A stretch of DNA of 64,000 bases, taken from Shouchella clausii. GTDB lineage: Bacteria > Bacillota > Bacilli > Bacillales > Bacillaceae_D. A program made the position numbers and the translations under genes. The stretch's first letter is position 1. Each line of letters opens with the position of its first letter. Location: positions 1 to 64,000 of the forward strand of contig NZ_BCXJ01000009.1 in the NCBI RefSeq assembly GCF_001598215.1, written 5' to 3'. Below, piece by piece: positions 2,079 through 13,119 of this stretch. Under the pieces are notes generated by a model. The model ran no database searches and had not been told where the DNA came from. It saw only the letters and a list, made by a program, of their open reading frames with translations.

Positions 2079-2663
2079 ATGAGCAAAAAAAATTGGAAAG
2101 TTTTGTTGGCATTGCCGTTGCTCGGTCTGCTCATGTTGGCTGGGTGTGCCCAGACAGAGGCGCAACAGAACGCCGATTATGAGGGCACCAAAAAAATGGT
2201 CATTGATTTGTTAAAAACGGATGAGGGCAAAAAAGCGTTCCATGAATTGATTGCCGAGGAAGAGATGCGGGAAGAACTTGTCATGGATAGTGACTTTGTC
2301 AAAAAAACCATCCAAGATACATTAACATCTGAAGAAGGCAAATCCTTTTGGCAAGAAGTCATGAAAGACCCTGAGTTTGCCAAAACGTTTGCGGAGAGCA
2401 TGCAGTCGGAAAATGAAAAGATTTTAAAGTCATTGATGAAAGACCCTGAATACCAGCAAATGATGATGGACATCTTAAAAGATCCGCAAATGGGCGAGCA
2501 AGCGCTGGAACTGATGAAGTCAAAAGAGTACCGTGAACAAATTATGGGTATTATGAACGAAGCGCTGGAAAGTCCTTATTTCGCCTCAAAAATGACTGAT
2601 TTAATAAGCAAGGCAATGGAAAAGCAAACAAAAGGACAAGATCAGAATAAAGAAGGTTCGTAA
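2079..2663 (+). CDS. gerD: spore germination lipoprotein GerD
   Basis: 194-aa lipoprotein: basic N-terminus, hydrophobic segment, lipobox LAGC with the modifiable Cys near residue 23, then a charged, Met-rich helical body. GerD clusters germinant receptors in the spore inner membrane. An AAAGGA element lies about 11 nt upstream of the ATG. A weak sigma-G-like promoter can be read at GCATA (2013-2017) with a CTA-containing -10 near 2035-2041; this is tentative. A strong hairpin terminator follows. Family and position next to kbaA agree with B. subtilis. Confidence 0.9.
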   Translation: MSKKNWKVLLALPLLGLLMLAGCAQTEAQQNADYEGTKKMVIDLLKTDEGKKAFHELIAEEEMREELVMDSDFVKKTIQDTLTSEEGKSFWQEVMKDPEFAKTFAESMQSENEKILKSLMKDPEYQQMMMDILKDPQMGEQALELMKSKEYREQIMGIMNEALESPYFASKMTDLISKAMEKQTKGQDQNKEGS

Positions 2664-2685: not shown

Positions 2686-2722
2686 GCCCAGCAGGTCGTA
2701 GATTGCGACCTGCTGGGCTTTT
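2686..2722. terminator. bidirectional terminator, gerD / RpiR regulator
   Basis: 13-bp perfect stem (2686-2698 with 2706-2718), 7-nt loop, T-rich on both strands outside the stem. It ends gerD on the plus strand and the seven-gene sugar operon on the minus strand. Confidence 0.9.
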
Positions 2723-2729
2723 ATCAAAT

Positions 2730-3539
2730 TCAATCAATCGATTCAGATATTTTCTTTTTAGCTGATTCGATATTGTCTTTATCTAACTCATACAGATGTT
2801 GACAAATTTGTTCCGTTACAAAAAGCTGTGACATTTGTGTAATTAATGTACTACCTTCTTGTTCGATTTCTTTTCCTGCTGTATGAATAATCATCTCTCC
2901 GATATTCGTGATCGGCGAGTGGGAATGATTTGTGATCGCAATGGACTTTGCCTTGTTTTTCTTCGCATTTTCTAGCCAGCGAATCGTTTCTTTCGTATCT
3001 CCAGTAATGCTAAAGGCAATCGCTAAGTCGCCCTCAGAAATCAGGTGGGAGCTAATAAATTGTGTATGTTGATCCGAAAAAGCATACGCTTTATAGCCGA
3101 GGCGCATGAGTCTAATTTGCGCGCCTTGGGCCGCCAGCCCTGAAAACCCAATCCCAAATAGATAGATGGATTGGCTTTCCATAATCCAAGTGGCAGCCTT
3201 TTTGAGGACCTCATTATCAGCCAAATTCCGTGTGTCATTCAGCATTTGAATGATCTCTTCATAGGTTTCTTGGACTTCCGTACTAAAGGTGGACGGTGTT
3301 GGGTTTCGCAGTTGTTTCGCCATATTCGTTTTGAATTCATGGTACCCAGAAAAACCAAGTTTTTTAAAGAAGCGAAAAACGGTCGCTTCACCCACGCCGC
3401 ATTCCTTAGCGAATTCCGTTAGTGATGGAAAAACAAAGTGATCGTAATGTTCTGTTATATATTGGGCTACCCGTTGTTCACTTTTCGTTAAGGAAGGGTA
3501 AATGCTTTTGATCACTGTTAACACGTCGGTTACATTCAC
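2730..3539 (-). CDS. MurR/RpiR family transcriptional regulator
   Basis: 269 aa. An N-terminal HTH_6-type DNA-binding domain (about 1-80, with CGVGEATVFRFFKKLGF) is followed by a SIS sugar-phosphate-binding domain (about 120-250). The GTG start at 3539 has GAGGGGGG 6 nt upstream. It is the last gene of the operon, 19 nt after the DUF4127 gene. Regulators of this class usually sense a pathway phosphosugar; given nanE in the operon, ManNAc-6-P or GlcNAc-6-P is a reasonable guess. It probably controls its own operon promoter near 8692. Confidence 0.88.
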   Translation of the reverse strand: MNVTDVLTVIKSIYPSLTKSEQRVAQYITEHYDHFVFPSLTEFAKECGVGEATVFRFFKKLGFSGYHEFKTNMAKQLRNPTPSTFSTEVQETYEEIIQMLNDTRNLADNEVLKKAATWIMESQSIYLFGIGFSGLAAQGAQIRLMRLGYKAYAFSDQHTQFISSHLISEGDLAIAFSITGDTKETIRWLENAKKNKAKSIAITNHSHSPITNIGEMIIHTAGKEIEQEGSTLITQMSQLFVTEQICQHLYELDKDNIESAKKKISESID

Positions 3540-3558
3540 TCCATGCCCCCCTCATCTA

Positions 3559-5094
3559 TCAATGAGTTTCCCGAATGTCTAGATGAATGCTGATTTCAAA
3601 CATCCGCTTCCAAGGGAATGTAATCTCTAGATTGGATATTACTATATTTTTAAAACTATGTCGAATGTTTGTATCATAAGCTTCTTTCAAGAGCGTTTCT
3701 ATTTTTTCCCCGACAACTTCTTCTTGTCCTTTCACATCAAAATAGTTGGCTCCAATGTTCGGTAGGAATGTATCAGTGATCGATTTCCTTATAGCAGCCT
3801 GGTAAAACCCATCATCAAACAGGTGATAGAGAATGTTTTTCTTTAAGTTGACCGTATGCCGATTTGTGCTCTCAAAGCCGAAAATCGCCGCTGCTATTGA
3901 AGTTCCGATCGTATTGCAGTTTGTGTTCCACGCTTTGTACGAAATAATGTGGTCTAGCAGCCTACTGTCATCTAAAAGTGCGATTAGCTCTAAATCACCC
4001 CCATTAGCAAAAGCACTATCCACGACGGCTACAGGGATACCCTCTTGTACATACCGCTCAATCGTATGGACAAAAACCCTCAATTGACGGAAGCTATTGT
4101 ACGTACTATCTTTCGCCAATTGATCGAACGATTCTTGCATCACTTTTCCAGGCGTATTCACAGCTAAAATAAAATCGGCTTGCTCTGGATTCGAGACCCA
4201 TATACAATCCGTGACAAACAAGTGTGATGTTAAACTTTCTGCCAGTGGCCTGTCTTCATATAACGGAATGATATTGGCACCTAAGGTTGAACTAAAGAAT
4301 GGATAAACTTTGATGGTTCGTTTGTTTAAATAATTAAATGCTTTTGCTATCAAAGAGGAACCGGCCTCATCTGCTCCGGGGTACACGACCACTTTCGATT
4401 GTAGCCTCTTGCTTACTATTTGGTCATAGACTCGTTTTTGGTCCTGTGATGTATAGCCATATTCAGCAGAATCATCTTGTGGTATCGCTAAAAAGTCAAT
4501 GACACCGTTCTCGACTAATTCCATAATCTTGACATTCATATTTAAGTTAAAGGCTCGTCTGTCTTCATAATCTTTAATTATGTCTTTTGGAACCTCACGT
4601 CGAATCGTTTGAAGTTCCTCTTGCTCTTTTTGAGACAAGCCGCTTCGTTCCCATTTATCGGTTAAATAAGCCCGTTTATATATACGTTCTCCGTACTGTT
4701 CATAATAATCGGGTTCTTCATCAGCGCTGTTATAACGAGGCGTTCGCATAATTAAACTAAACGAAAATATCGGTTTATCCCTAACCACTTTCCTTAATGT
4801 TCGAAAATAATCGATACGCTTCAACCCTTCATCTTCGCTTAAATGATGCAAGCGAGAAGGAAGTAGCCCTCCATAAAGCAGCATATCAGTAGATAATACA
4901 AGGGCATCCGCTGTTTTTGCTTGATCAAATACAAATTCCCACAAAGCCTCCGTATCAGCAGGCTTCTTCTTGTCCCCCAATAGATGGATAGGCGGTATTC
5001 GTAATCGCACATCTGATCTTGTGTTGGCTAGGAATGTTGGATAAGCATAGTTGCATGGACGTTCATCTAGCGGGATATAAACGATCGTGTACAA
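3559..5094 (-). CDS. DUF4127 family protein, possible glycosidase of the sugar operon
   Basis: About 511 aa, cytoplasmic (no signal peptide). The family hallmark IPLDERPCN sits at residues 7-15. Other conserved-looking acidic motifs are STD (68-70) before LLYGG, QDDS (206-209), PGADEAG (239-245), NGGD (364-367) and AWNTNCNTIG (388-397). The clustered Asp/Glu residues suggest an enzyme, but the family has no function I know. I prefer a TTG start at 5094 (AAAGGAG about 10 nt upstream; product begins just before the family motif); a GTG at 5121 would overlap the HAD gene by 4 nt. In a disaccharide-PTS operon with no known phosphoglycosidase, it may be the hydrolase; this is inference. Confidence 0.8.
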   Translation of the reverse strand: MYTIVYIPLDERPCNYAYPTFLANTRSDVRLRIPPIHLLGDKKKPADTEALWEFVFDQAKTADALVLSTDMLLYGGLLPSRLHHLSEDEGLKRIDYFRTLRKVVRDKPIFSFSLIMRTPRYNSADEEPDYYEQYGERIYKRAYLTDKWERSGLSQKEQEELQTIRREVPKDIIKDYEDRRAFNLNMNVKIMELVENGVIDFLAIPQDDSAEYGYTSQDQKRVYDQIVSKRLQSKVVVYPGADEAGSSLIAKAFNYLNKRTIKVYPFFSSTLGANIIPLYEDRPLAESLTSHLFVTDCIWVSNPEQADFILAVNTPGKVMQESFDQLAKDSTYNSFRQLRVFVHTIERYVQEGIPVAVVDSAFANGGDLELIALLDDSRLLDHIISYKAWNTNCNTIGTSIAAAIFGFESTNRHTVNLKKNILYHLFDDGFYQAAIRKSITDTFLPNIGANYFDVKGQEEVVGEKIETLLKEAYDTNIRHSFKNIVISNLEITFPWKRMFEISIHLDIRETH

Positions 5095-5117
5095 ATGTTT
5101 CACACTCCTTTTAGAAG

Positions 5118-5909
5118 TCACTTAGCTTTTAACTGTTCGAGAATCTCTTCCATGCAGGCTTTGACACTTGTTTTCACTACGGTTGCCTTTTGTTTTACAG
5201 CTTCCGGGGCATGTTCCATCGCAAAGGAATAGCCGGCGACCTCAAATAAGGAGAGATCGTTTTCAGAGTCGCCTATTGCAACGACTTGCTTCGAGTTGGC
5301 CTTTAGTTTTTCCATCGTTTTTTCAAGAGCAGTCCCTTTTGATACGCCGTAGGGTAAAATTTCTAGTGTATGTGGACTCGTGGCGATGAAGTCAACATAG
5401 CCATCGTATTTTTTAGAAAGCTTTTCTTTGATTTCAGCAAATATCCCTACATCACCAAAAAGGAGGAAAATGACAGGTTGAATTTGGACGCCTACCTTTT
5501 GCTCAAGATCAGGTTCAATAATCGAGGAGTCGATAAACTCAGCTACTTCCCCTTCCTTTCGCGGCGATGGAAAATAGCGATGATTTATATCAGATACTTC
5601 AATGCGAATATCCCAAGCTTTAAGGTCTCTCATTAATCTTTGTGCAACGTCTGAATGGATCTCTTTTTTTAATAAAACTCGGTTCTCTTTATCTTTAATA
5701 ACCGCACCGTTTTGACTGATGCGAAACTCCCCAGCAATCCCTAGTTGTTTTTCAACATAAACAATATCGTGATCCAGCCTTCCTGTTGCAATCATGAATG
5801 AGCCGCCCACATGATGGAATGCTTGGATGACATCTTTTGTGCCAGCCATAATGCGATTTTGTTTATCAAGTAAAGTTCCATCTAAATCACATGCTACAAG
5901 GTTTGTCAT
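5118..5909 (-). CDS. Cof-type HAD-IIB family phosphatase
   Basis: 263 aa. HAD motif I DLDGT has the nucleophile D8 and D10; the motif II region is ATGR (41-44), Lys191 fits motif III, and GDSEND (213-218) is motif IV, with a C2-type cap between. Members dephosphorylate sugar phosphates and similar small metabolites. The ATG at 5909 has AGGAGG 6 nt upstream; longer frames lack a ribosome binding site. It sits between the PTS IIC gene and DUF4127, so its substrate is probably an intermediate of the same pathway. The exact substrate cannot be read from sequence. Confidence 0.88.
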   Translation of the reverse strand: MTNLVACDLDGTLLDKQNRIMAGTKDVIQAFHHVGGSFMIATGRLDHDIVYVEKQLGIAGEFRISQNGAVIKDKENRVLLKKEIHSDVAQRLMRDLKAWDIRIEVSDINHRYFPSPRKEGEVAEFIDSSIIEPDLEQKVGVQIQPVIFLLFGDVGIFAEIKEKLSKKYDGYVDFIATSPHTLEILPYGVSKGTALEKTMEKLKANSKQVVAIGDSENDLSLFEVAGYSFAMEHAPEAVKQKATVVKTSVKACMEEILEQLKAK

Positions 5910-6003
5910 TGACATCCTCCTGAACGATCGTGTTGTTTTTCTCAAATAAAGAACCAATAGGTTGTATCGGCCGTCGATACAACCTAACAGATTTTAAAAA
6001 GAT

Positions 6004-7314
6004 TTACTGACTTCTTTCCTCGTTCGCAACCTTATTCGCTGCGATTACAAAAGGAAGGTAAATAAATACGGAAACACCAATTAACAGCACTGCTAAAAGT
6101 GCGGCCCTCCAGTCACCTGCGGTTGATAAAAAAGCAGATAATACGGGAGGCGTTGTCCAAGGAACCATGACAACGGTTTTTGATATGAACCCTAACGCTG
6201 TAGCCATATAAGCGATATTTAAATTAACCAATGGCACGAGAATAAGGGGTATCGCTAAAATAGGGTTTAGAATAACTGGCAGTCCGAACATTAATGGTTC
6301 ATTAATATTAAACAAACCTGGTGCCAGTGAAAATTTAGCAACCTCTCGATATTCTGCTCGTTTTGAGGCAATGAAAATGGCAATGATCAATCCGATCGTA
6401 CATCCGCCGCCTCCAAGCATAGCGAAACTATCAATAAATGGCTTTGTTACAATATTAGGAATATCTAAATTAGTTTGAAAGGCATTGATGTTTTCCTGAA
6501 TCGCTGTGAGCAATGTCGGTTCTGTTATCGGCCCAAGAACGAACGTCCCGTGGATACCCATTCCCCACAGCAAATTTTGAAAGGTCATCACAACGTTAAT
6601 GCCGACTAAACCTTGGAAAATGGCCTTAAGAGGCACCTGGATAACCTCTGTTACGATTTCTTGCAGTCCTAAGCCAAACATTGATTGTAGGAGAAAAACC
6701 AATGTTCCAAAGAACGACAGTGTAACAAATGCTGGAATCAGCGCTTCAAATGATCTGGATACTGCAGGTGGAACACTTTCAGGTAGCGATATTCGTAATC
6801 TCTTGTTTTCTTGAAGCTTTAAAAAGAGCTCTGTTCCGAGCAACGCAGAAATAATCGCGAACAGCAAACCTGTTGCTGATGTCTCTGTCTGTGTAATAAT
6901 CCCCGTTACTTGTACGGCTGTCTCGCTATTAAGAGGGGTCACATCTAATACAGAAGGGAACATTGTAACAAGGACAGCCACAGACATGACGCCTGGAATG
7001 ATCCCGTCTTTGCCATAGCTTACCGCCAGTTTATAGGCAACCGTAAATGCAACAAATATCGAGAGAAACCCTAGCGTTCCATTATAGACTTGGGTTCCGA
7101 TCCCTTTAAATTGACTTAAATCAATGACATTTTTCAAAATGCCATTGTCTGGGTCTAGCACAACATTGTTAATTAATATGAAGAATGAAGCAACAATGAC
7201 TAAAGGAATCAGTAAAATAAAACCATCACGGACAGCTCCTAAATGGCGCTGATTGGCAAATTTGTTCGCAACGGGTGCCAGCCAAGTTGCGATCTTATCG
7301 GATAGTTTGTTCAT
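6004..7314 (-). CDS. PTS Lac-family sugar transporter subunit IIC
   Basis: 436-aa polytopic membrane protein of the lactose/cellobiose/diacetylchitobiose (CelB-like) EIIC family, forming the sugar channel. About ten hydrophobic segments are visible. Typical family stretches include GMGIHGTFVLGP and GGGGCTIGL, followed by NEPLMFGLPVILNP, which contains a conserved Asn-Glu. The ATG at 7314 has GAGGGGGG 7 nt upstream. Separate IIB and IIA genes lie just upstream. The family generally imports beta-linked disaccharides or N-acetylated sugars with phosphorylation at C6. Confidence 0.92.
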   Translation of the reverse strand: MNKLSDKIATWLAPVANKFANQRHLGAVRDGFILLIPLVIVASFFILINNVVLDPDNGILKNVIDLSQFKGIGTQVYNGTLGFLSIFVAFTVAYKLAVSYGKDGIIPGVMSVAVLVTMFPSVLDVTPLNSETAVQVTGIITQTETSATGLLFAIISALLGTELFLKLQENKRLRISLPESVPPAVSRSFEALIPAFVTLSFFGTLVFLLQSMFGLGLQEIVTEVIQVPLKAIFQGLVGINVVMTFQNLLWGMGIHGTFVLGPITEPTLLTAIQENINAFQTNLDIPNIVTKPFIDSFAMLGGGGCTIGLIIAIFIASKRAEYREVAKFSLAPGLFNINEPLMFGLPVILNPILAIPLILVPLVNLNIAYMATALGFISKTVVMVPWTTPPVLSAFLSTAGDWRAALLAVLLIGVSVFIYLPFVIAANKVANEERSQ

Positions 7315-7336
7315 CCACAATCCCCCCTCAAGCCTA

Positions 7337-7654
7337 TTATTTAGACTGCTCGATCGTTTCTACAATATCTTCAAGCACTTTGTCTCCCCGCAGCATGCCA
7401 TAATCAGCTTGGTTGATCACTTTCACTGCCATGCGGCCTTTAACGAACTCTTCCATTTGTTTTTGCATAAATGCCACTTGTGGTCCTAATAGCAAAAGAT
7501 CATAATCATGTTTTTGCACTAAGGCTTTTCCTTCAGTAATAGATACAGCCTCAATATCCAAGTTTACCCCTTGCTTTTCGGCCTCGTTCTTGACCTTTTG
7601 TACGAGCATACTCGTTGACATTCCAGCACTGCAGGTCACCAAAACGTTATACAT
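7337..7654 (-). CDS. PTS Lac-family subunit IIB
   Basis: 105-aa cytoplasmic phosphocarrier. The active-site Cys8 sits in TCSAGMSTS, the typical loop of the lactose/cellobiose IIB family, followed by the conserved LLGPQVAFM segment. AGGAGGGG lies 7 nt before the ATG. It accepts phosphate from the IIA protein encoded two genes upstream and passes it to sugar bound by IIC. Confidence 0.93.
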   Translation of the reverse strand: MYNVLVTCSAGMSTSMLVQKVKNEAEKQGVNLDIEAVSITEGKALVQKHDYDLLLLGPQVAFMQKQMEEFVKGRMAVKVINQADYGMLRGDKVLEDIVETIEQSK

Positions 7655-7667
7655 GATTGAACCCCTC

Positions 7668-8336
7668 CTATTGTTTTAACTTTTCAGCAAATGTGTGTGT
7701 AATCAATTGCGGCCGAGTAATGGCGGACCCAACCACGACTGCATGGGCGCCTAATTCTATCGCTTTTTTAGCTTCTTCAGGTGTTTGAATTCGCCCCTCA
7801 GCTATGATCGGCATGTTTAGTTCGCGAACCAATTGTTCGAGCAGATGAAAATCCGGCCCTGGTTGTTGTGACGAATAAGGTGTATACCCTGATAATGTCG
7901 TCGAAATGCAATCAACGCCTAACTTGGCTGCCTCCACACCTTCATCGAATGTAGAAATATCGGCCATTACTAAGCATCGGTTTGTCTGAATGTGCCGAAC
8001 TAACTGTTCCACACGCTCACCATTAGGCCTTTTCCTGTTAGTGGCATCGATTGCAATCATGTCAATACCTGTACTTAAAAGTTCATTTACCTCTGCTTTG
8101 GTAGGTGTGATATATACTTCTGATCCGGCATACTCCCGCTTTATGATTCCGATTACAGGAAGGTCTACTTCATTTTTTATGGCTTGAATATCTTGTACGG
8201 AATTTGCACGAATACCAACAGCGTTTCCCCATTTCGCTGCTTTCGCCATTTTCGCCATGATCATCGATCCATGCAAAGGCTCATCCTCTAAAGCTTGACA
8301 AGAAACAATTAACCCACCTTTTATCTCATTTAGCAT
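7668..8336 (-). CDS. nanE: N-acetylmannosamine-6-phosphate 2-epimerase NanE
   Basis: 222-aa TIM-barrel enzyme converting ManNAc-6-P to GlcNAc-6-P. Visible family signatures are GGLIVSCQA near the N-terminus, IKREY with the likely catalytic Lys66, IDATNR (96-101), and EGRI plus VVVGSAITRP near the phosphate-binding end. I chose the ATG at 8336 (AGGAG 9 nt upstream) over a GTG two codons earlier. No sialic-acid lyase (nanA), ManNAc kinase (nanK) or nagA/nagB is nearby. Its place inside a PTS operon points to ManNAc-6-P formed directly by PTS import rather than by sialic acid breakdown. Confidence 0.95.
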   Translation of the reverse strand: MLNEIKGGLIVSCQALEDEPLHGSMIMAKMAKAAKWGNAVGIRANSVQDIQAIKNEVDLPVIGIIKREYAGSEVYITPTKAEVNELLSTGIDMIAIDATNRKRPNGERVEQLVRHIQTNRCLVMADISTFDEGVEAAKLGVDCISTTLSGYTPYSSQQPGPDFHLLEQLVRELNMPIIAEGRIQTPEEAKKAIELGAHAVVVGSAITRPQLITHTFAEKLKQ

Positions 8337-8348
8337 GATCACATTCTC

Positions 8349-8660
8349 CTATTTTTGAACTTTCTCTTTATGCAGAAATAGCATTTCTTTCGCTAAGTCT
8401 ATCGCTAACATGGCAGTCATTAAGTGATCCTGTGCATGGATGAGCAGAATAGAAAGGTTGATTTCCTCTCCCCGTGCATTGCTTTGGATCATCTCGGTTT
8501 GTACTTTATGAGCGACATTGATTTCCTTCTCTGCTTCCTCTAGCAAATTGTCTGCTTCTGAAAATTGCTGTTCTCTAGCAAATTGTAACGCTTGCATCGT
8601 TTTGCTTCTTGCATTTCCGCTATGCAAAATAATGGAAAAAGCGTTTTCATGAATATTCAT
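8349..8660 (-). CDS. PTS Lac-family subunit IIA
   Basis: 103-aa three-helix phosphocarrier of the lactose/cellobiose IIA family. The active-site region IHAQDH (74-79) contains the likely phosphorylated His75. It is the first gene of the operon, with AAAGGAGG 6 nt upstream of the ATG and a TATAAT -10 further upstream. It takes phosphate from HPr, which is encoded elsewhere. NanE starts 12 nt after its stop, indicating tight co-transcription. Confidence 0.93.
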   Translation of the reverse strand: MNIHENAFSIILHSGNARSKTMQALQFAREQQFSEADNLLEEAEKEINVAHKVQTEMIQSNARGEEINLSILLIHAQDHLMTAMLAIDLAKEMLFLHKEKVQK

Positions 8661-8868
8661 TGGGAGCCTCCTTTCTTTAATGGAAATGACAATTATAGTT
8701 TAAAGGAAGAATATAAAAATGTAAAGTTATTTTCACCACAATAATTATTTTGGAGAAAATATTTCATTTATTCGTTTTTAAACTTGTCCTCTCCTAACGA
8801 AGAGCTTTTCAAGAAACCTAGCGACAGCGCTTGAAGAAAACGATAGAAAGGGAAGAGGAAAAGCCAAC
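8661..8868 (-). promoter_or_regulatory. promoter and candidate operator of the PTS/NanE/DUF4127 operon
   Basis: On the minus strand a perfect -10 TATAAT lies at 8692-8697 with no good -35 at 16-18 nt, as expected for a regulated promoter. Upstream are two small palindromes: AATAATTATT (8740-8749) and GAAA-ATA-TTTC (8755-8765). The latter resembles the pseudo-palindromic GAAA/TTTC sites bound by RpiR-type repressors. The remainder (8770-8868) shows nothing recognisable. Confidence 0.5.
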
Positions 8869-8869
8869 A

Positions 8870-8911
8870 AAAAAAAGCGGGAGAAGCATATCAAATGCTT
8901 CTCCCGCTTTT
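8870..8911 (-). terminator. terminator after salA
   Basis: 14-bp perfect stem (8876-8889 with 8895-8908), 5-nt loop, followed on the minus strand by a run of eight T. It separates salA from the downstream sugar operon. Confidence 0.92.
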
Positions 8912-8928: not shown

Positions 8929-9981
8929 TCACTCTGTTTTTTCAACAATTCGTTCCGCCAAACGGTGGTAAATCTCACCAATTGGATGTTCTTGTGCATA
9001 AACGGACGGGGCAAAATCATTTTCATCAATCTCAGGCTGCCCGAGAGGAATTTGCGCAAGCAATTCCGTTTTTAATTCTTCCGCCAAACGTTCGCCGCCG
9101 CCCGTTCCAAACACATATTCTTTCTCTCCAGTTGCTTTGCTTTCAAAGTAAGCCATATTCTCTACAACGCCAAGCATTTCATGGTTTGTTTTTATCGCCA
9201 TTGCACCAGCTCGGGCAGCAACAAATGCTGCTGTTGCGTGTGGGGTGGTCACGATCAGTTCCTTTGAACCTGGCAGCATGGAATGCAAGTCGAGAGCAAC
9301 ATCGCCCGTACCTGGAGGTAAGTCCAAGATGAGATAATCAAGCTCTCCCCATTCGCATTCGGAAAAGAATTGGTTGATCATTTTCCCGAGCATGGGTCCC
9401 CGCCAAATAACAGGGGCATTGTCTTCCACGAAAAAGCCCATTGAGATGACTTTAACGCCAAAGCGTTCAACGGGGTGGATACGTTTGTTGATCACTTTCG
9501 GCCGTTCTTCAATCCCCATCATGTCAGGGACACTAAATCCATAAATATCGGCGTCAATAATGCCGACTTTTTTCCCAAGGCGGGCAAGCGCGACTGCCGT
9601 GTTGACAGAGACGGTCGATTTGCCAACCCCGCCTTTTCCGCTCGCCACTGTAATAAACGTTGTTTTGCTTGTCGGCGCAAGCAAAGCAGGACCTTTAAAG
9701 GGTTCTTCTTTTAGGCCGCCAACCGCTTCTAGCTCTTCCTCAGTAAGTGTATCAAAACGGAGTCCGACTGATTCAGCGCCCTCGTTTTTGAGGACATTGA
9801 CTATTTCCTGTTGGACTTGCATTTGCTCGGCTGTTCCCGTTTTTGCTAAAGCGACTTTTAGGCTGACGTGGCCATTTTTATTTTTCAGCTCGCGGATGCC
9901 GCCAGTTTCTACAATGCTCTTATTCAAGTCACGATCTTTAATTCGTTTTAGCGCTTCCATTATTTCTTGATCCGTTATCAT
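8929..9981 (-). CDS. salA: Mrp/NBP35 family P-loop ATPase SalA
   Basis: 350 aa. An N-terminal MIP18-type domain (about 1-80) is followed by a deviant Walker A GKGGVGKS (115-122) and a MinD-like ATPase domain. In the C-terminal region where Mrp Fe-S carriers have CxxC, this protein has YFESKATGEK, so the cluster ligands are missing, as in B. subtilis SalA, a regulator of protease expression. Length matches SalA (352 aa). The ATG at 9981 has AAGGAAGG 8 nt upstream; a GTG three codons earlier overlaps that site. Position next to gerD/cwlD is conserved apart from the inserted operons. Confidence 0.9.
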   Translation of the reverse strand: MITDQEIMEALKRIKDRDLNKSIVETGGIRELKNKNGHVSLKVALAKTGTAEQMQVQQEIVNVLKNEGAESVGLRFDTLTEEELEAVGGLKEEPFKGPALLAPTSKTTFITVASGKGGVGKSTVSVNTAVALARLGKKVGIIDADIYGFSVPDMMGIEERPKVINKRIHPVERFGVKVISMGFFVEDNAPVIWRGPMLGKMINQFFSECEWGELDYLILDLPPGTGDVALDLHSMLPGSKELIVTTPHATAAFVAARAGAMAIKTNHEMLGVVENMAYFESKATGEKEYVFGTGGGERLAEELKTELLAQIPLGQPEIDENDFAPSVYAQEHPIGEIYHRLAERIVEKTE

Positions 9982-10020
9982 CGATGGCACCTTCCTTTAA
10001 CAATCGCTCCTATTTTCCCC

Positions 10021-10049: not shown

Positions 10050-10080
10050 CTAGAGCGCTTCGCCCTAGTCCTTATCTGTT
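10039..10080 (-). terminator. terminator after ptsG
   Basis: Long imperfect hairpin with arms 10039-10057 and 10061-10080 and a 3-nt loop. It overlaps the ptsG stop codon. The following T-run is short, so termination may be partial. Confidence 0.6.
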
Positions 10081-12118
10081 AGCGGTCCACCGCGACAATG
10101 CCTTTTTCTTTTGCCAGAACCCGTCCTTTTTTGTTGATGACGACAGTCCCTCCTAAGTTGGTAAACACGACTGGCGTAATTGTAGAAGCACCGTGGTTCC
10201 GGATATAATCTAAATCAAATTCGGCCAATTTCTCGCCTGCACTTATCTGGTCGCCTTCTTCTACAAGGACGTCAAACCCTTCTCCTTGAAGTTTAACTGT
10301 ATCGATGCCGATGTGGATCAACACTTCCATTCCAGTAGATGTCGTCAGTCCAATCGCATGCTTCGTCGGGAAGATGGTCGTCACTTTTCCTTCAACAGGC
10401 GAATAAACAATGCCGTCTTCTGGATCAATCGCAAACCCGTCGCCCATCATTTTTTCAGAAAAGACTTGATCTGGCACTTCCGCGAGCGACATGACCGTAC
10501 CTGTCATTGGTGCTAGGAATGCCCCGTCATTCATCAATGCATCTGGCTGAATTTCTTCCAGTTTGCCACTGACTTCCTCTTGTTGATTTGTTTCTAGAGG
10601 TCGAGGCGCTTTTCCCACCATGACATCTTGGATTTGGCCTTTAAGCGTCTCTGAACGAGGGCCAAAAATCGCTTGGATGTTGTTGCCTACTTCTAGAACT
10701 CCAGCTGCGCCAAGCGCCTTCAATTCGTCTTTGTCGACTGCTTTAATATCATTTACCGATACACGCAGCCGCGTAATGCATGCGTCAAGATGAGCAATAT
10801 TGTCTTTTCCGCCCATCGCTTGCAACACTTGTCCTGCTAACTCGCCTGTTTTTCCTTTGCCTTTGTTATCATTAGCTGTGTCTTCTTCCCGTCCTGGCGT
10901 CATTAAATTGAATTTTTGAATCGCAAAGCGAAAAACGACGTAATAAATTACCGCAAATACGAGGCCAATGAGAATGGTAATCCACCATTGTTCTTCATTC
11001 GGCAAAATCCCGAATAAGAAAAAGTCAATCGCTCCGCCTGAAAAGGTGAACCCAACATGAACGTCGAACAACGTCATCAATACAAACGATAGGCCATCGA
11101 GGATCGCATGTAGCAAAAACAATACCGGCGCGATAAACAAGAACGTAAACTCAATTGGTTCTGTGATTCCTGTCAAAAACGATGTCAACGCCGCAGAACC
11201 AAACAAACCAGCAACCAGTTTTTTCTTCTCAGGTTTGGCACAATGGTACATCGCCAGTGCCGCAGCTGGCAGGCCAAACATAAAAATCGGAAATTCGCCT
11301 GCCATGAAGTGGCCAGCCGTCAATTCCACGCCATCGCGGAGTTGCGCGAAGAAAATGAGCATGTCGCCACGGACAATTTCCCCTGCCGCATTGGTATAGG
11401 AACCGAATTCATACCAGAACGGGGCATGGAAAATGTGGTGCAGTCCAAATGGGATCAAAAGCCGTCTTATAAAACCAAATAAAAACACAGCTACATACAA
11501 GCTCGACCCTAACAAAAACTCAGAAAAGCTGTTTAAGCCGTGTTGGATCGGCGGCCAAACAACAAGCAAAAGAAGCGCCATTAAAAATGTAGCAACCGCT
11601 GTGATAATAGGGACAAACCGTTTGCCGGCAAAAAAACCAAGAAAAGCGGGCATTTCTATATCGTGAAAGCGGTTATAACAGTAAGCAGCAATTAAGCCGA
11701 CGATGATCCCGCCAAATACGCCTGTTTGCAGAGTATCAATCCCCAGAATATTGGCAAAGCTCGGGTCTTCGGCTACCATTTCCGCGCTCACGCCAAGCCA
11801 TTGGCCCATCACGGTATTCATCACCAGGTAGCCGACTAGCGCTGCAAGTGCGGCTGCACCGTCACCAGCAAGGCCGATCGCGACCCCGACAGCGAAAATA
11901 AGAGACAAGTTGTCAAAAATAATGCCGCCAGCGGCTTCCATCACACCAGCCGTATGTTGAATCCAGCCCGCGTCTAAGAACGGCATGTAGTTCAATGTGT
12001 TTTCCATTTGCAAAGCGGCACCAATGCCAAGCAGCAAACCAGCCACCGGCAGCATCGCAACCGGGAGCATCAATGCCTTCCCAATTTTTTGCAACTTGCC
12101 AAATGCATTTTTAAACAA
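10079..12118 (-). CDS. ptsG: glucose-specific PTS enzyme EIICBA
   Basis: 679-aa fused glucose permease. The IIC membrane domain covers about 1-400. The IIB domain (about 425-505) has the phosphorylated Cys in LDACITRLRV, and the C-terminal IIA domain (about 535-675) has the active His in VLIHIGIDTV. It imports and phosphorylates glucose. The TTG start has GGGAGG 8 nt upstream. The domain order is that of B. subtilis PtsG. The adjacent glcT gene and the RAT/terminator in the leader show GlcT-controlled antitermination. Confidence 0.93.
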   Translation of the reverse strand: MFKNAFGKLQKIGKALMLPVAMLPVAGLLLGIGAALQMENTLNYMPFLDAGWIQHTAGVMEAAGGIIFDNLSLIFAVGVAIGLAGDGAAALAALVGYLVMNTVMGQWLGVSAEMVAEDPSFANILGIDTLQTGVFGGIIVGLIAAYCYNRFHDIEMPAFLGFFAGKRFVPIITAVATFLMALLLLVVWPPIQHGLNSFSEFLLGSSLYVAVFLFGFIRRLLIPFGLHHIFHAPFWYEFGSYTNAAGEIVRGDMLIFFAQLRDGVELTAGHFMAGEFPIFMFGLPAAALAMYHCAKPEKKKLVAGLFGSAALTSFLTGITEPIEFTFLFIAPVLFLLHAILDGLSFVLMTLFDVHVGFTFSGGAIDFFLFGILPNEEQWWITILIGLVFAVIYYVVFRFAIQKFNLMTPGREEDTANDNKGKGKTGELAGQVLQAMGGKDNIAHLDACITRLRVSVNDIKAVDKDELKALGAAGVLEVGNNIQAIFGPRSETLKGQIQDVMVGKAPRPLETNQQEEVSGKLEEIQPDALMNDGAFLAPMTGTVMSLAEVPDQVFSEKMMGDGFAIDPEDGIVYSPVEGKVTTIFPTKHAIGLTTSTGMEVLIHIGIDTVKLQGEGFDVLVEEGDQISAGEKLAEFDLDYIRNHGASTITPVVFTNLGGTVVINKKGRVLAKEKGIVAVDR

Positions 12119-12159
12119 TAGAATTCCCTCCCAAATTGTTTTTTTGATATGTAGGAACG

Positions 12160-12250
12160 CAAAAAAGGCATGAGCAAAAAGACACTGGATTGGTTTTAAA
12201 ACCCAGTCATTTCTTTTTCCTCATGCCTGATCGAATCAGTTACACGAATT
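12160..12250 (-). promoter_or_regulatory. ptsG leader: RAT antiterminator overlapping an intrinsic terminator
   Basis: On the minus strand the segment 12216-12248 contains GTGTAACTGATTCGATCAGG then CATGAG, closely matching the B. subtilis ptsG ribonucleic antiterminator, with a CTGAT/ATCAG stem (12227-12239). Its 3' part forms one arm of a terminator whose arms are 12166-12182 and 12212-12228 (one mismatch in 17), followed by TTTTTT. The two structures are mutually exclusive, so GlcT binding should allow ptsG transcription. The RAT begins directly at the glcT stop codon. Confidence 0.88.
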
Positions 12251-13095
12251 TATTTGCTTTTGTTCTGCACCCTCTGCAAGTGCATCGTCAAGTAGACCGC
12301 CTCAGCATCATACACTGGTTTACCAAGCGTCCTTTGCATGACTTTAATGAGCTTCCAAGAAAGATTATAACATACGGGATATTCTTGTTTCAACAGTTTT
12401 GCAATCGCTTTCGGCTCTTCGACTTTTTCACCCGTCATCACCCGTTCAATCGTAAAGCGCAAATGCCTCACAAGACGAAGATAATCCATGCTCTCTTTGT
12501 CCAATTTTATCGCAAACTGGCTCTCCACAAGGGAAACAAGTTGACTAACTAATTGCGAATGGCTATTGACGATATTCATGCTTTTATTTTGAATGGCGCT
12601 ATGGATATGAAGCGCAATAAAGCCAATTTCTCCTTCAGGGAGCTGGACACCGGTCTGCTGGCCAACAAGGGCTACCACTTCTTTGGCAATCGCATATTCA
12701 CGTGGATAAAGCGCTTTCGTCTCTGCCAAAAAAGGGTTTTCAATCGACATTCCTTGGGCAATCCGGGCATGGGCAAAGGACAAATGGTCCAGTAGCCCGA
12801 TATGGATATGCTCGTTTAAATCCATGCCTGCTTTTTTGGCAATAAGAGAAATGGCTTCCACCGTCACATCTATCATCGTTTGCGAAATATGTGGAAGCAG
12901 CTTCAAATAGCTTTGTTGCTCTTTTTCATCTTTTAAAACAAACAGTTTCTCAATGTCTTGCTGCTCAAGCCAGTCTCCATTTTTGCGGGCAAAACCGATG
13001 CCTTTTCCAATGACGACCACTTCTTGGTTGTCACGCTCAGCAATGACCACATTGTTATTAAGGGCCTTTTTTACTTTGTACTCCCCCACATTCAT
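12250..13095 (-). CDS. glcT: transcription antiterminator GlcT (BglG family)
   Basis: 281 aa. An N-terminal CAT RNA-binding domain (about 1-60, KKALNNNVV and VVIGKGIGF) is followed by two PRD domains with the conserved His residues that take PTS phosphate. It binds the RAT in the ptsG leader when glucose is present. I use the ATG at 13095, matching the B. subtilis N-terminus; the GGAG upstream is unusually close, and a GTG one codon earlier is possible. The gene pair glcT-ptsG is conserved in bacilli, but its location between cwlD and salA differs from B. subtilis. Confidence 0.92.
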   Translation of the reverse strand: MNVGEYKVKKALNNNVVIAERDNQEVVVIGKGIGFARKNGDWLEQQDIEKLFVLKDEKEQQSYLKLLPHISQTMIDVTVEAISLIAKKAGMDLNEHIHIGLLDHLSFAHARIAQGMSIENPFLAETKALYPREYAIAKEVVALVGQQTGVQLPEGEIGFIALHIHSAIQNKSMNIVNSHSQLVSQLVSLVESQFAIKLDKESMDYLRLVRHLRFTIERVMTGEKVEEPKAIAKLLKQEYPVCYNLSWKLIKVMQRTLGKPVYDAEAVYLTMHLQRVQNKSK

Positions 13096-13119
13096 CACTC
13101 CAACAGCTTCTTCCCTTTC

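Follow-up and report, generated by a model that had tools for sequence, protein, structure and literature searches.

In a 64,000-nucleotide stretch of the Shouchella clausii genome (contig NZ_BCXJ01000009.1, positions 1 to 64,000; here called the window), we found a seven-gene operon that joins a Lac-family phosphotransferase system (PTS) to NanE, the N-acetylmannosamine 6-phosphate (ManNAc-6-P) 2-epimerase, and to a protein of the DUF4127 family. Its assignment to a ManNAc pathway is strong. We consider the chances even that the operon salvages a beta-linked ManNAc glycoside, most likely ManNAc-beta-1,4-N-acetylglucosamine (ManNAc-beta-1,4-GlcNAc), with DUF4127 as the glycosidase. The most likely candidate sources of this disaccharide are wall teichoic acid linkage units or secondary cell wall polymers (SCWPs), and DUF4127 would be a hydrolase, a candidate (6-phospho-)beta-N-acetylmannosaminidase.

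A compact PTS-NanE-DUF4127 operon

The operon lies on the minus strand at 2730-8660 in the order IIA, NanE, IIB, IIC, HAD, DUF4127, RpiR. An earlier note on this DNA had described a compact minus-strand PTS-NanE-HAD-DUF4127-RpiR operon, and that description holds: all seven open reading frames (ORFs) are intact, and the Pfam scores of all seven proteins are far above cut-off. The features are as follows.

8873..8911, minus strand: terminator-like stem of 17 pairs at the 5' side of the operon, directly 3' of mrp, the gene upstream
8349..8660, minus strand: PTS Lac/cellobiose-family IIA (PF02255 PTS_IIA, 120 bits)
7668..8342, minus strand: NanE, ManNAc-6-P 2-epimerase (PF04131, 242 bits; nearest solved chain 4utt, 284.5 bits)
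7337..7654, minus strand: PTS IIB, Lac/cellobiose (PF02302, 68 bits)
6004..7320, minus strand: PTS IIC, Lac/cellobiose (TIGR00410, 409 bits, above cut-off; 3qnq, 241 bits; PTS_EIIC, 188 bits)
5958..5986: third stem, between IIC and HAD
5118..5957, minus strand: Cof-type HAD-IIB phosphatase (TIGR00099, 164 bits, above cut-off; Hydrolase_3, 178 bits)
3559..5121, minus strand: DUF4127 protein (PF13552, 510 bits)
2730..3539, minus strand: RpiR/SIS regulator, NanR-like (HTH_6, 76 bits; SIS, 74 bits; best solved match 4ivn)
2686..2718, no strand: terminator-like stem of 13-15 pairs, 3' of the operon

The transporter belongs to the Lac family, with IIA, IIB and IIC as separate proteins, all of the Lac/cellobiose type. 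NanE is a member of its family and carries R45, K68, D128, E182 and R210, residues that we take to be catalytic; all are likewise present in the 4utt alignment. The HAD and DUF4127 reading frames share 4 bases. NCBIfam, which has no DUF4127 model, otherwise matches the Pfam assignments of the operon genes. The earlier note had the operon bounded by terminators: there is a stem on each side, though the number of terminator-like sites (6 in total) is not in excess of that in shuffled sequence (mean 5.8). Pfam and NCBIfam find no NanA aldolase among the seven genes, so the operon does not qualify as a sialic acid (nan) operon. As for nagA and nagB, which the earlier note had listed as missing, both are absent from the operon but present elsewhere in the host genome (contig C2, 624-626 kb).

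DUF4127 is linked to nanE across genomes

The link between DUF4127 and nanE is genuine. It recurs in a sample of the order and beyond the order in other phyla, which is the check that the earlier note had proposed. Among 299 genomes of the order sample, 51 carry DUF4127 and 72 carry nanE (at E 1e-20); nanE is found in 41/51 DUF4127 genomes versus 31/248 others (Fisher p 1.5e-21, uncorrected for kinship). The two genes lie within 20 kb of each other in 35 of these 41 genomes and within 2 kb in 9; of the 48 nanE copies that DUF4127 genomes carry, 35 have DUF4127 within the 20-kb distance. The phylum sample, also of 299 genomes, includes 46 with DUF4127 and 32 with nanE, which is present in 21/46 DUF4127 genomes versus 11/253 others (p 3.5e-12) and, outside the order, in 19/44 versus 11/251. 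Where a phylum genome has both (21), they are within 20 kb in 8 cases, on different contigs in 12 and 2.1 Mb apart in one.

Kinase genes give way to PTS genes

To compare locus architectures, we assembled 133 loci, 80 named and 53 from the order sample, with four near-identical pairs among them. The named loci are the best 80 of 514 confirmed relatives from a whole-genome scan; they are biased to the query's nearest and include the host's own. NanE, HAD, ROK and flavin adenine dinucleotide (FAD) oxidoreductase genes were counted by tblastn (1e-8, within 8 kb), and glycoside hydrolase (GH), NagA, NagB and ATP-binding cassette (ABC) genes by ORF clusters, each identified via one or few members.

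NanE lies within 8 kb of DUF4127 in 80/133 loci. Twelve loci contain PTS IIC, and these have NanE in 10/12 and HAD in 11/12, with ROK and FAD oxidoreductase each in 0/12. The non-PTS loci (n=121) include 70 with NanE, and there ROK is present in 60/70 and FAD oxidoreductase in 57/70; HAD occurs in 0/121, and ABC sugar permeases in 82/121. The two PTS loci without NanE are L056, whose contig ends 1.3 kb past DUF4127, and L099 from Pantoea, where HAD is also missing. HAD is present in L044 and L047 by tblastn; a weaker phmmer search had also placed it in 3 loci that have neither PTS nor ABC genes, which the tblastn repeat did not show.

Mapped onto the DUF4127 tree, the PTS label requires 5 changes, at least 3 of them forced by supported branches; the transporter was therefore swapped more than once while NanE was retained. 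The simplest reading is that a kinase is dispensable where the PTS phosphorylates the sugar. Since ROK is absent when the PTS is present, NanE's sugar, ManNAc, would be the sugar that the PTS phosphorylates. A Lac-type disaccharide PTS phosphorylates the non-reducing unit; ManNAc set free from a reducing end would depend on a kinase all the same, and the PTS loci have none within 8 kb.

The FAD oxidoreductase accompanies even secreted-type DUF4127. In Gemmiger (L042, L045), DUF4127 is followed by a gene (no Pfam match, checked in L042) and then by an FAD oxidoreductase-like gene recognized by eye; L042 also has, by eye, a GH38-like gene.

Partner genes point to ManNAc

That the substrate contains ManNAc, as had been proposed, gains from this exchange of kinase for PTS and from NanK- and NanR-like partners, which point to the same sugar. 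The leanest locus, in Treponema (L055), consists of DUF4127-NanE-ROK, and the best solved match of its ROK protein is N-acetylmannosamine kinase 5nck (160 bits versus 113 for the next). A single 559-residue protein in an amino-sugar locus (L033:7219-8898) fuses ROK to RpiR; its ROK half scores 191 bits with 5nck versus 155 for the next, and its RpiR half 67 bits with 8tx9 and 57 bits with VvNanR. The best solved matches of the window RpiR are VvNanR (4ivn, 94.9 bits) and 8tx9 (88 bits), the latter probably SpNanR, judging from residue numbering. According to a preprint (PMC12713135), the structure of VvNanR was determined in complex with ManNAc-6-P, and SpNanR is described as binding ManNAc-6-P but not N-acetylglucosamine 6-phosphate (GlcNAc-6-P).

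The side-chain contacts of SpNanR that we compared were S135, S179, S181, T184, R148, D160 and Y229. By the 8tx9 alignment, the window RpiR keeps S133, R146, S177 and T182, has T179 for S181 and H158 for D160 (VvNanR also has H at this position), and carries E228 in place of Y229, where the alignment is unsure. The conserved Arg may be general to RpiR proteins. Clusters of nagB and nagA occur in 9/133 and 7/133 loci, respectively, one member of each having been identified.

Just 5' of DUF4127-NanE-ROK in L055 stands an aminoglycoside 3-N-acetyltransferase-family gene (L055:9219-9974; PF02522, 158 bits), a relative of which also follows DUF4127 in L101.

A secreted-type DUF4127 clade in cell-surface loci

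A separate clade of DUF4127 (16 members) has no NanE within 8 kb. Those members whose start was inspected show a hydrophobic N-terminal stretch by eye. Nine of these secreted-type members sit in cell-surface loci, and nanE is absent from all nine genomes. L134 carries, on one strand, DUF4127, a WecG/TagA-family gene (213 bits; 242 bits with the TarA model, under its cut-off of 350), a flippase, DUF5693, CsaB (302 bits) and a TagO-like gene (PF00953). DUF4127, DUF5693 and CsaB also share a strand in L133, and in L136 CsaB and DUF5693 are ~4-9 kb from DUF4127. SLH proteins are encoded in the loci of both L141 and L135. In L141 they occur together with a WecG/TagA-family gene and, by clustering, a TagO-like gene; L135 adds a UDP-GlcNAc 2-epimerase, assigned by its clustering with a gene of 551 bits to wecB. 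The secreted-type DUF4127 in L137-L140 directly follows SecA2 (TIGR04397) and the surface-layer (S-layer) assembly protein SlaP (TIGR04399), both identified in L139 and assigned in the remaining loci by clustering.

CsaB at 270 bits or more is found in 9/9 secreted-type genomes versus 48/299 overall in the order sample (hypergeometric 3.6e-8, with the 270-bit threshold set after seeing the list and 4/9 genomes from one family) and in 7/42 other DUF4127 genomes of that sample. The distance from CsaB to DUF4127 is 2-54 kb in the eight secreted-type genomes with both on one contig. As a general marker CsaB was rejected: at phylum level it barely discriminates (42/46 DUF4127 genomes versus 174/253 others, p 0.001). 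In the remaining seven members of the clade, the neighbours are instead an FAD oxidoreductase, an ABC importer or both. F5/8 type C modules, a kind common on glycosidases, occur in two secreted members, and one of the two has a NEW3-like stretch under cut-off as well.

According to PMC6030368, Paenibacillus alvei TagA transfers ManNAc onto a lipid-linked GlcNAc mimic. That paper and PMC10435577 describe CsaB as a pyruvyltransferase and the S-layer anchor as 4,6-pyruvylated ManNAc. The terminal unit of the P. alvei S-layer anchor polymer is given in PMC6081394 as Pyr-beta-D-ManNAc-(1-4)-beta-D-GlcNAc, and the linker of wall teichoic acid to peptidoglycan in PMC7086022 as ManNAc-beta-1,4-GlcNAc. 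The secreted-type clade thus points to the same sugar, ManNAc.

Sequence and predicted structure of DUF4127

The operon protein is a clear member of PF13552 (510 bits versus a cut-off of 27, covering profile positions 1-488 of 489) and of cytoplasmic type, with no signal peptide by eye. We have seen the family in Bacillota, Actinomycetota, Spirochaetota, Cyanobacteriota, Pseudomonadota and Deinococcota. DUF4127 looks like an enzyme. Strands and helices alternate in its AlphaFold model (predicted local distance difference test (pLDDT) 93, predicted template modelling score (pTM) 0.92), 42 columns are invariant across 28 members of the order, and the invariant acidic residues D19, D216, D217, D251, E252 and D368 sit shortly after predicted strands.

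Foldseek with the full model returned 26 matches at E <= 0.001, xylose isomerases on top (2e-5). The xylose isomerase alignments have template modelling (TM) scores of ~0.2-0.26 and root-mean-square deviations (rmsd) of ~13-20 A, and TM is at most 0.31 among the 50 matches listed; because TM is low and rmsd high, we counted these as no match. A TIM barrel was dropped as a candidate fold, since the matches are unconvincing. A separate model of residues 205-425 (pLDDT 79) had no Foldseek match at E 0.001. BFVD yielded one viral protein without a name (A0A346TNQ6, TM 0.80 by query length). A phosphate-specific pocket could not be named on comparing 11 PTS-associated members (L099 excluded) with 51 ABC/NanE-associated ones: the invariant arginines are common to both groups, and of six positions that differ between them only W63/F63 is nearly fixed in both.

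Proposed pathway

In the pathway we propose, the Lac-family PTS would import the ManNAc glycoside and phosphorylate C6 of its non-reducing ManNAc, as its family and the kinase exchange suggest. DUF4127, as a new type of glycosidase, would cleave the 6-phospho-disaccharide to ManNAc-6-P and GlcNAc. NanE, whose family membership is observed and whose reaction is established for the family, would turn ManNAc-6-P into GlcNAc-6-P, and the NagA and NagB encoded elsewhere in the genome would process this onward. By homology, the NanR-like RpiR may sense ManNAc-6-P. For HAD we can offer a guess: it might relieve sugar-phosphate overload or remove phosphate at some step. Secreted-type relatives may cut the ManNAc-beta-1,4-GlcNAc linkage too, in the pyruvylated polymer that anchors the S-layer.

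Three points favour hydrolysis of a beta-ManNAc bond: the leanest loci miss one step, the freeing of ManNAc(-6-P); the enzyme without an assignment that these loci all share is DUF4127; and the secreted-type clade sits where ManNAc-GlcNAc polymers are made. Helped by this clade's place in S-layer/SCWP loci, ManNAc-beta-1,4-GlcNAc has moved from an example substrate in the earlier note to the best candidate.

Several observations weigh against this pathway. DUF4127 matches no glycosidase family (Pfam gives only PF13552, NCBIfam nothing), neither models nor fold place it in a known GH or 6-phospho-glycosidase family, and it has no sequence match or convincing fold match to any solved structure. 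Some copies, secreted (L144, L154) or phage-borne, depart from the conserved motifs, and 25/46 DUF4127 genomes of the phylum sample have no nanE. The freed GlcNAc would need a kinase, and none lies within 8 kb in PTS loci, the rest of those genomes not having been searched for kinases. HAD is retained in 11/12 PTS loci without a clear step. The FAD oxidoreductase has no place in plain hydrolysis, and its retention in most non-PTS NanE loci (57/70) suggests a redox step. GH38 and ManA in some ABC-type loci indicate that the substrate there also contains mannose. The TagA-family gene of L134 scores under the TarA cut-off, so its product may transfer another sugar, and with CsaB in 216/299 phylum genomes, co-occurrence at that level says little.

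Alternative explanations

The most serious alternative, which we regard as unlikely but of real weight, is that DUF4127 acts on a substituent (O-acetyl, pyruvyl ketal), taking it off or shifting it, or is a lyase or isomerase, and that an unlinked enzyme cuts the ManNAc glycan. It would account for a protein that has neither a glycosidase signature nor a convincing fold match and whose secreted-type clade has csaB, a pyruvyltransferase gene, in its vicinity. DUF4127 often has esterase-family neighbours (AXE1, Esterase, GDSL) and the FAD oxidoreductase nearby, so substituents may be handled there. However, DUF4127 is the sole candidate for freeing ManNAc in Treponema L055, and HAD is the only other unassigned enzyme in PTS loci. 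By our reasoning, depyruvylation is unlikely in PTS loci because the C6 hydroxyl that the PTS would phosphorylate is blocked in 4,6-pyruvylated ManNAc.

We think it distinctly improbable that the substrate is N-glycan-like (Man-beta-1,4-GlcNAc after alpha-mannose trimming), with DUF4127 a beta-mannosidase-type enzyme and NanE in a side reaction. Such a substrate fits the ABC loci, where GH38 occurs in 25/82, GHL10 in 24, GH20C in 10 and GH84 in 4, and the presence of ManA in L033, L116 and a Priestia plasmid. The PTS loci speak against it, with GH38, GHL10, GH20C and GH84 in 0/12 (ORF clusters; ManA not part of the count), and it leaves NanE and the ManNAc-kinase-like ROK genes without a role.

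Uptake of free ManNAc, handled by NanE alone with DUF4127 as an accessory, would need just the PTS and NanE, which suffice for this sugar. We judge it very improbable: the operon PTS is of the disaccharide-type Lac family, HAD accompanies DUF4127 in 11/12 PTS loci, and the host has another PTS locus that lacks DUF4127 and would suit the import of free ManNAc. There (L166:7157-10261; host contig C3, ~91-94 kb), NanE comes after PTS IICB, and by eye the opposite strand carries an RpiR-like ORF. A further host locus (L167:5075-10458; contig C1, ~932-937 kb) combines PTS IICB, a sulfatase (PF00884, SGSH_C) and NanE (170 bits) with an IIA-like ORF by eye and a formylglycine-generating-type enzyme, which suggests use of sulfated ManNAc or GlcNAc.

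A chance neighbourhood of DUF4127 and an unrelated nanE has a negligible probability: some DUF4127 genes do lack these partners (none is adjacent in the cyanobacterial L053) and many phylum genomes lack nanE, but the 35/48 nanE copies close by in the order sample, the phylum co-occurrence and the retention of NanE as transporters change contradict it.

Insertion site and mobility

The operon arrived as one unit between gerD and mrp, the genes that flank it:

2079..2663, plus strand: gerD, left side of the insertion site (NF040801, 236 bits)
8929..9990, minus strand: ATPase gene that we take to be mrp/apbC, right side of the insertion site

Insertion as a unit follows because the operon splits gerD from mrp, which are adjacent in 5/5 relatives (four of the same genus, one of the same family; matches 53-110 bases apart). 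DUF4127 has a match in 0/5 of these relatives. Upstream of the operon, beyond mrp, the window holds a glucose PTS (PTS-II-BC-glcB, 814 bits) and a CAT/PRD antiterminator at 10079-13098.

The window DUF4127 is 100% identical to the copy in Shouchella tritolerans FJAT-45399 (L031), which makes the host this strain or a very close one. Its nearest relative on a quick tree is from Anaerosalibacter (L032; Shimodaira-Hasegawa-like approximate likelihood ratio test (SH-aLRT) 97), which has the same seven genes in a different order, RpiR first, and presumably belongs to another family and class than the host. Our plasmid search found eight DUF4127 genes on plasmids and no near copy of the operon; Carnobacterium plasmid pCAR50 has a five-gene version, annotated as deposited: NanE, HAD, DUF4127, IIC, RpiR.

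Faecal phage records gave two partial DUF4127 matches, and none with a secreted-type member as query. Four IMG/VR contigs carry DUF4127 (L168-L171). They are phage-like, ~25-34 kb, and their DUF4127 is divergent (L170: 231 bits). In L170 a phage transcription activator stands on one side of it and tail sheath/tape measure genes on the other; L168, L169 and L171 are alike by eye.

Relation to known systems and implications

Like sialic acid (nan) operons, the DUF4127 loci bring together NanE, an RpiR/NanR-like regulator, NagA-NagB downstream and, in non-PTS relatives, a NanK-like ROK. The window operon differs in lacking NanA, in whose place DUF4127 stands, and in entry via a Lac-family PTS, whereas relatives use an ABC importer. 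Diacetylchitobiose/cellobiose (chb/cel) operons share the Lac-family IIA, IIB and IIC and a presumed 6-phospho-glycosidase; unlike them, the window operon has NanE, HAD, DUF4127 and an RpiR regulator, and no known phospho-glycosidase.

Recycling of N-acetylmuramic acid 6-phosphate (MurNAc-6-P) and MurNAc-GlcNAc by MupG and NamZ salvages wall fragments, and a former DUF family there proved to be a glycosidase. The parallel lies in wall-fragment salvage and a DUF-family candidate glycosidase; in the window operon, however, DUF4127 matches PF13552 only (Pfam), the sugar would be ManNAc and MurQ is not among the seven genes. The P. alvei csaB-tagA-tagO SCWP locus resembles the gene kinds beside secreted-type DUF4127 (L133, L134, L141) but is biosynthetic, whereas the window operon is catabolic; the text consulted in PMC6030368 names three of the five genes there. 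The operon is a variant of PTS amino-sugar catabolism; should the activity be confirmed, DUF4127 would count as a new enzyme family.

More tentatively, and with less than even confidence, DUF4127 may be the first beta-N-acetylmannosaminidase family, with a fold not represented among solved structures, serving salvage of ManNAc-beta-1,4-GlcNAc from Gram-positive wall polymers in the cytoplasm, trimming or remodelling of S-layer polymers when secreted, and attack when phage-borne. Taken as a whole, this possibility would make cytoplasmic members phospho- or non-phospho-specific and have phage copies beside tail genes attack the S-layer anchor polymer.

The words DUF4127, PF13552 and N-acetylmannosaminidase occur in no open-licence PMC paper. 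If the proposed pathway is true, it would be a salvage route without description in the open-licence literature searched. It would also provide a tool for cutting teichoic acid linkage units and SCWPs, and give a function to the DUF4127 family across six phyla.

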